Shown: positions 36,891-38,311 of the stretch, in pieces | Numbering within the stretch: the stretch's first letter is position 1 | Layout: every line of letters starts with the position of its first letter | Assembly (NCBI GenBank): GCA_016192705.1 | Contig: JACPTQ010000007.1 | Coordinates: 1-63,621 of the forward strand | Source: Deltaproteobacteria bacterium | GTDB taxonomy: Bacteria > Myxococcota > JACPTQ01 | DNA length: 63,621 nucleotides | Reading direction: 5' to 3' | Made by a program: the position numbers and the translations under genes | The notes under the pieces: generated by a model | What the model was told of the DNA's origin: nothing | The model's input: the letters and a program-made list of their open reading frames with translations, nothing else | Databases searched by the model: none

Positions 36891-37370
36891 ATGGCGGACA
36901 AAAAAGGACCAGCGGTTGGCGAATATGCAGTTCCGTTCGAGCTTGCGGACGCGTTTGGGGTTGTTTATCGGTCGTCAGAAATTCTGAGTCGCGCGAAGAT
37001 GTGCGTGGTTTTTCAGCGCGGGACGTGGTGACCGAACTGCGTGAAGCAACTCGCGCAGTTGCGCGAGCGGATGGACGATATCAAGGCGCGTGGATTCGAG
37101 GTGGTGGTGGTGGTGGCGCAAGCGCGAGACGCGGTGAGGGCGTGGCTCGAAAAAAACCCGCATCCGTTTCCGATTCTGTCGGACGAGACGCGGGAGACGA
37201 TCAAGGCGTATGGCGTCTACCACGCGCTTGGGTTTGACGCGTTTCGAATCGCGCGGCCAGCGGTCGTGCTTGTGGCGAAGTCGGGCGAGGTGCGGTTTCG
37301 CGCCGTGGCGTCGACGCAGTTTGGGTGGCTGCGGGGCGATGCGCTTGTTGCGGAGATGGGGCGCGTTTAA
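36891..37370 (+). CDS. Peroxiredoxin-like selenoprotein (in-frame TGA = selenocysteine, UxxC motif)
   Basis: 159 aa if TGA 37029-37031 is read as selenocysteine. The N-terminal part (MADKKGPAVGEYAVPFELAD) and the part after the TGA (VKQLAQLRERMDDIKARGFEV, then FPILSDETRETIKAYGVY and ARPAVVLVAKSG) form one continuous AhpC/TSA-redoxin domain in a single frame. The TGA falls exactly at the first cysteine of the redox motif: QRGTW-[TGA]-PNC, expected W-C-P-x-C. This gives U47-P-N-C50. A hairpin begins 3 nt after the TGA. AGGG lies 4-7 nt before the ATG. The stop TAA overlaps the next start (TAATG). A nonsense mutation is the alternative. Confidence 0.8.
37029..37060 (+). promoter_or_regulatory. 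Candidate bacterial SECIS hairpin after the UGA
   Basis: The TGA (37029-37031) is followed after 3 nt by a 9-bp stem: AACTGCGTG (37035-37043) pairs with CGCGCAGTT (37052-37060), one G-T wobble included, closing an 8-nt loop AAGCAACT. Without the two inner pairs it is a 7-bp stem and a 12-nt loop with G in position 2, matching the known preference for a G early in the apical loop of bacterial SECIS elements. Such elements must lie within the coding sequence just 3' of the UGA, as here. Confidence 0.65.
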
Positions 37371-38311
37371 TGGGAATGCCGTACGCGGTTGTTGGCGCGG
37401 GTTATTGGGGGCAGCGGCACGCGGATCGGGCGCGCGAGGTGGATGGGGTTGACGTCGCGTTCGTCGTTGATCGGGACCGGTCGCGGGCGGAGGCGCTGGC
37501 GGCGCGGGTGGGGGCGGCGGCACCCGATGATGTGCGGCGACTCGCGGGGCGCGTCACAGCGGCTGCGGTGGCGGTGCCGGCGAGTGAGCACCGGGCGGTT
37601 GCGTGCGCGCTGCTGGAGGCGGGCATTGCCGTTTTGCTGGAAAAGCCGCTCGCGCCGACGTTGGCCGAAGTCGATGCGTTGCTCGAGGCGGCGCGGCGGA
37701 CGGGGGTTTTGCTCCAAGTCGGGCATTTGGAGCGGTTCAACCCGGCCGTCGTTGCGGCGCGTGGCGTCGTGCGAAATCCGCGGTTCATCGAGGTTCACCG
37801 GATTGGTCCGTTTTCGGGGCGTGCGTCGGATGTCGATGTGGTGCTCGATTTGATGATTCACGACCTCGACCTCGTGCTCGATTTTGTGGGAGCGAAGGTC
37901 GTCGAGGTTCGCGCCGCGGGAGCGCCCGTGTTGTCGGGACAAATCGATATTGCGAACGCACGACTTGAGTTCGCGAATGGAGCGGTTGCGAACGTCACGG
38001 CGAGTCGCGCGTCGCTCAAGGAGGAGCGGAAACTTCGGGTTTTTCACAACGATGGGTACACGGCGATCGATTTTGCGCGCCAAGAAGTTGTGTCGGTCGA
38101 GCGCCGCATCGACACGCGCGGCGAGGTGACGATAGAGGCGCGGCTGCTCGATGTCGCGACGTCCGATCCGCTGCGAGACGAGATCCGTTCGTTTGTGCGC
38201 GCGGTGAAGGGCGAGGCGGCCGATGTGCCACCGCTTGATGTGGCGCGCGAGGCGATTGCGCTTTCTCAGCAGATCCGCGGAGATATCCAGCGTCGCCTCG
38301 AGAATTGCTAA
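37370..38311 (+). CDS. Gfo/Idh/MocA-family oxidoreductase
   Basis: 313 aa. An N-terminal Rossmann fold (GAGYWGQRHADRAREV) binds NAD(P); EKPLAP near 90 contains the conserved catalytic-site lysine. The C-terminal alpha/beta domain has LDLMIHDLDLVLDFVG, with the usual HDLD motif. Family members oxidise or reduce sugars and related compounds; the substrate cannot be told. The ATG at 37370 overlaps the stop of the selenoprotein gene (TAATG), so the two are translationally coupled. ATG 37376 is an alternative start. Confidence 0.85.
   Translation: MGMPYAVVGAGYWGQRHADRAREVDGVDVAFVVDRDRSRAEALAARVGAAAPDDVRRLAGRVTAAAVAVPASEHRAVACALLEAGIAVLLEKPLAPTLAEVDALLEAARRTGVLLQVGHLERFNPAVVAARGVVRNPRFIEVHRIGPFSGRASDVDVVLDLMIHDLDLVLDFVGAKVVEVRAAGAPVLSGQIDIANARLEFANGAVANVTASRASLKEERKLRVFHNDGYTAIDFARQEVVSVERRIDTRGEVTIEARLLDVATSDPLRDEIRSFVRAVKGEAADVPPLDVAREAIALSQQIRGDIQRRLENC

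Follow-up and report, generated by a model that had tools for sequence, protein, structure and literature searches.

Peroxiredoxin-like selenoproteins with a UxxC motif were catalogued as 'Prx-like protein' in work on the Sargasso Sea (PMC1088965), and the same type was found to be abundant in the Global Ocean survey, where it was named 'Prx-like 1' and comprised 225 marine sequences (PMC2398784). Table 1 of a 2026 catalogue includes a 'Prx-like thiol:disulfide oxidoreductase, UxxC, PF00578' (PMC13188914) and also a 'Redoxin family protein, UxxC, PF08534' (PMC13188914), the latter being the 'Prx-like 3' of the ocean survey (PMC2398784). These three sources bear out the statement, made in the original prediction for the locus described here, that UxxC redoxins are an established type of bacterial selenoprotein.

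The locus lies in a stretch of 63,621 nucleotides (the window) and had been put forward as a probable new selenoprotein. This holds for the sequence, which is new and well supported, but not for the type, which is the one already described in the studies cited above. The redoxin is, on good evidence, an added sequence of a catalogued UxxC selenoprotein type, and selenoprotein knowledge in general is unchanged by it. With high confidence, as judged from sequence and predicted structure, we read the gene as encoding a cytoplasmic UxxC redoxin with a thioredoxin-like active site on a peroxiredoxin-type fold, in which UGA 47 would be decoded as selenocysteine (Sec) by SelB and Sec-tRNA(UCA) under the direction of a SECIS hairpin. 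The coordinates of the features are collected in Table 1.

Table 1. Features of the redoxin locus, with positions numbered along the window.
Feature	Position	Strand	Basis
Sec-containing redoxin gene	36891..37370	+	159 residues, ATG to TAA, one in-frame TGA; Pfam across the TGA, codon statistics, AlphaFold
TGA = predicted selenocysteine 47, first residue of UxxC	37029..37031	+	C/UxxC homologues have either TGA or TGC/TGT as the aligned codon; the genome encodes the Sec machinery
TGC = Cys50, resolving cysteine of UxxC	37038..37040	+	Invariant in the 32-sequence alignment A2
Alternative hairpin of the original prediction	37035..37060	+	Folds in silico; excludes the SECIS hairpin and vice versa
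Probable bacterial SECIS hairpin CUCGCGC-AGUU-GCGCGAG	37050..37067	+	bSECIS constraints, compensatory changes, synonymous recoding
Gfo/Idh/MocA family oxidoreductase gene	37370..38311	+	Pfam PF01408, 7.9e-26; start overlaps the redoxin stop (TAATG)

The single frame interrupted by one TGA was found as predicted, and its translation, which reads ...FQRGTWUPNCVKQ... around this codon, agrees. The codon-usage log-likelihood was 0.30 per codon before the TGA and 0.42 after it, the neighbouring genes giving values of 0.15-0.40 (n = 8 genes), and none of the other five frames at the locus scored above 0.14 per codon. The Pfam domain AhpC-TSA (PF00578) spans the TGA (residues 9-136, 9.6e-23), with a score of 80.9 bits against a cut-off of 26, and so does the Redoxin domain (PF08534, 7.6e-20). 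Because both domains cross the TGA and the codon statistics are gene-like, the region corresponds to one gene and not to two chance frames, and the AhpC/TSA-type redoxin is continuous on both sides of the TGA, as had been claimed. Standard gene callers would truncate or drop this gene, in line with the original prediction that they would split or drop it; a conventional caller would see one frame of 102 codons that stops at the TGA and another of 109 codons from GTG 37041 onwards. A scan of the window by codon statistics for further genes with TGA readthrough returned for the most part shadow frames and the true ends of genes.

The TAATG overlap noted in the original prediction is real, and the oxidoreductase that follows belongs to the Gfo/Idh/MocA family; the overlap suggests that the two genes may be co-transcribed. 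In the homologue loci searched, where the flanks covered were only ~1.5-2.5 kb long, no matches to the neighbour genes of the redoxin were found, Gfo/Idh/MocA included. As this gene was unmatched in those flanks, its link with the redoxin is probably not conserved.

The host genome (5.21 Mb, 88 contigs, 96.7% complete, phylum Myxococcota) belongs to a lineage for which no close relative of the same family or genus was present among the genomes searched. A search for selA, selB, selC and selD revealed all four: a tRNA-Sec (selC, 76 bits) with anticodon UCA according to ARAGORN, a SelB of 648 residues that includes the C-terminal SelB winged-helix domain, a SelA (467 bits) and a SelD (368 bits). 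Together with the Cys/TGA homologues described below, this full Sec set supports the proposal that the host decodes UGA as selenocysteine.

The host SelD (L050, G000:C70:50295-51221, minus strand) is by sequence a selenoprotein too: its frame contains a TGA at the usual site (GUACK), and downstream of it lies an 8-bp hairpin whose loop is GCG. A second Sec redoxin of the host (L018, G000:C53:32794-33147, minus strand) is a TxxU-type peroxiredoxin, AFTSGUTREL, with the TGA at the peroxidatic position and a 7-bp hairpin downstream; in both hairpins a G is found within the first two loop positions. In the host lineage, UGA very probably encodes selenocysteine in at least three genes, namely those of the redoxin, SelD and the TxxU peroxiredoxin. 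TGA is also an ordinary stop in this genome, where it ends five of the eight neighbouring genes checked. The reading of TGA as tryptophan was ruled out by this usage and by the homologues, which have Cys and not Trp at the site.

Homologues were gathered from 195 genomes of the phylum, 58 relatives and 84,980 GTDB species. In those with a C/UxxC motif, the codon aligned to position 47 was either TGA (21 distinct sequences) or TGC/TGT (26 distinct Cys sequences), and the sequence downstream was intact, with no sign of decay; in the codon table, the weak two-Sec relative L088 is off by one residue in the alignment. The TGA thus occupies the place of the first cysteine of WCPxC, giving WUPNC with the second cysteine kept, as had been proposed. 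The TGA form was found in Chloroflexota, Acidobacteriota, Planctomycetota, Actinomycetota and Myxococcota. More distant peroxiredoxins had Thr at the position aligned to 47 and Cys or Sec at that aligned to 50. Two in-frame TGA codons (ULPU) were seen in the Chloroflexota homologues L091, L099 and probably L088, which are UxxU proteins resembling the SelL kind, and two peroxiredoxin-like proteins from Gemmatimonadales (L093, L097) are of the TxxU type, YPGNDTPGUNRQ, with the TGA at the peroxidatic position.

A nonsense mutation that truncated a former Cys redoxin and left a pseudogene would be in keeping with TGA being a normal stop in the host, but the 112 codons after the TGA keep gene-like codon usage, family conservation runs to the end of the protein (for example, 41% identity to L062), and the TGA coincides precisely with the catalytic position, a site at which TGA is found in five phyla. 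We regard this explanation as extremely improbable.

SelB was present in all 14 TGA-bearing genomes tested, above the cut-off in 13 and, in the remaining one, split into two pieces below it. These pieces (G077:C115:1151-3065) cover profile positions 1-71 and 135-580, and the split is possibly due to a frameshift or a sequencing error. As most Cys genomes hold SelB too, its presence does not discriminate between TGA and Cys genomes.

The best match among all the sequences searched was a protein from a Ktedonobacterales MAG, 41% identical and with the TGA present (FRGTQUPNC), followed by Cys proteins from Armatimonadota and Myxococcaceae. In the tree, the window protein and the Ktedonobacterales TGA protein were paired (94/86), adjoining nine Cys proteins that form a clade of their own (99/93). 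Eight Sec/Cys changes are required over the whole tree, and its well-supported branches make at least four of them unavoidable. With TGA and Cys forms side by side in one clade, the former followed by hairpins and the latter mostly not, the group is a tidy case of natural Cys/Sec exchange. It is conceivable, though doubtful, that the window protein makes up a small Sec subfamily with its relative from Ktedonobacterales, distinct from the neighbouring Myxococcaceae/Armatimonadota Cys clade; the two would record a Cys/Sec switch or an interphylum transfer and would differ in substrate range from the catalogued Prx-like selenoproteins.

In the published model of the bacterial SECIS, the loop has 3-9 nt and the stem 4-16 bp, a G occupies one of the first two loop positions, the distance from the UGA is 16-37 nt and the MFE is at most -7.5 kcal/mol (PMC13188914 Fig. 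2). Each of these constraints is satisfied by the probable SECIS hairpin, in which 37050-37056 pairs with 37061-37067 (7 bp) around an AGUU loop (37057-37060) located 25 nt from the TGA, with an energy of -12.0 kcal/mol for the hairpin alone. When the window gene was recoded synonymously, this energy was reached by 2.0% of 20,000 recodings. In five related sequences, the hairpin was paired in 97% of cells and compensatory changes were found at four of the seven pairs, although the test leans towards this structure because the five sequences were chosen for having hairpins in the same register. A comparison of unselected homologues, in which the best model-like hairpin of each sequence was taken with loops of up to 14 nt, pointed in the same direction, with a mean energy of -8.2 kcal/mol after TGA vs -2.3 after Cys codons (Mann-Whitney p 8e-8, a value that overstates the difference because the rows are related and not independent).

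The hairpin that was singled out in the original prediction, which begins 3 nt past the TGA, does exist, with 37035-37044 paired to 37051-37060 (10 bp including one G-U) and its loop only 13 nt from the TGA. However, the conserved hairpin is the other one: of the hairpin first noted, only 66% of cells were paired in the five related sequences, no better than with shuffled columns. Rfam detected no SECIS or other RNA family over the window at gathering scores, and loose thresholds gave only a chance match near the redoxin gene. Among the homologues, the Acidobacteriota TGA sequences L067 and L069-L073 share a SECIS-like hairpin, UCCGCC-AGUU-GGCGGA, with the same AGUU loop as in the window gene, but three codons nearer to the TGA.

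The TGA of the host lineage was seen in a single draft assembly, it lies one base apart from TGC, and the nearest relatives within the phylum (Myxococcaceae) carry Cys, so an error of sequencing or assembly could have turned a true TGC, TGT or TGG codon of an ordinary Cys redoxin into TGA. Against this, the closest sequence relative carries TGA as well, downstream of the TGA there is a covarying SECIS hairpin with the expected geometry, while the Cys relatives mostly lack such a hairpin, and the genome decodes Sec, with at least two more genes having TGA at a known Sec site. Such an error is very improbable.

The AlphaFold model of the redoxin had a mean pLDDT of 95, and its top fold matches were Bcp/PrxQ- and AhpC-type peroxiredoxins, the best PDB entry being Bcp4 (3hjp, TM 0.88). 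In the alignment to 2cx3, the P, S, C and R of the peroxiredoxins correspond to R43, U47, C50 and P123, so that the peroxiredoxin PxxxT/SxxC motif and conserved Arg are absent and only the peroxidatic Cys position is kept (C50). The nearly invariant P123, aligned with the peroxiredoxin catalytic arginine, may be a thioredoxin-type cis-proline, and with WUPNC it forms the active-site layout of thioredoxin-like disulfide oxidoreductases. Inspection of the N-terminus by eye revealed no obvious signal peptide. Since WUPxC, and a proline where thioredoxin has its cis-proline, take the place of the peroxiredoxin motif residues, a role as thiol:disulfide oxidoreductase appears likelier than that of a classical peroxidase.

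Sec is a good peroxide nucleophile, and this, along with the AhpC/TSA domain and the peroxiredoxins among the best fold matches, would fit a selenoprotein acting mainly as a peroxidase on H2O2 or organic peroxides. In contrast, the replacement of the peroxiredoxin Pro, Ser/Thr and Arg and the thioredoxin/TlpA layout of a UxxC with an adjacent proline speak against it, and we consider a mainly peroxidatic role unlikely, though it deserves some weight, peroxide reduction as such being possible. Most likely, the protein acts in the cytoplasm as a thiol:disulfide oxidoreductase whose nucleophile is Sec47. In the mechanism that we propose, SelB with Sec-tRNA(UCA) would decode the UGA at codon 47, the SECIS hairpin would direct the insertion, and the protein would adopt a peroxiredoxin-type thioredoxin fold in which a helix begins with W-Sec-Pro-Asn-Cys and P123 takes the position of the thioredoxin cis-proline. 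Sec47 would then attack a disulfide (or peroxide) substrate, Cys50 would resolve the selenyl-sulfide and a thiol reductant would recycle the enzyme.

No close named representative was found. The best NCBIfam match of the window protein was the SelL-related redox protein NF040769 (E 9.6e-13), but the score of 48.1 bits is far below the cut-off of 120 and the motif is UxxC, in contrast to L091 and similar proteins, which have UxxU. The fold and Pfam family are shared with the Sec peroxiredoxin TxxU PF00578, of which the host also has one (L018), but there Sec is the second residue of the motif, whereas in the window protein it is the first. The Redoxin UxxC PF08534 family has the same motif, and Redoxin is the second Pfam match of the window protein; however, AhpC-TSA scores higher, and the two Pfam models overlap. 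With the Prx-like thiol:disulfide oxidoreductase UxxC family (catalogue representative WP_010940744.1), compared by its catalogue description, the window protein shares PF00578, a Sec-first UxxC with TGA and widespread Cys homologues, a bacterial SECIS directly downstream and a host with SelA, SelB, SelC and SelD.
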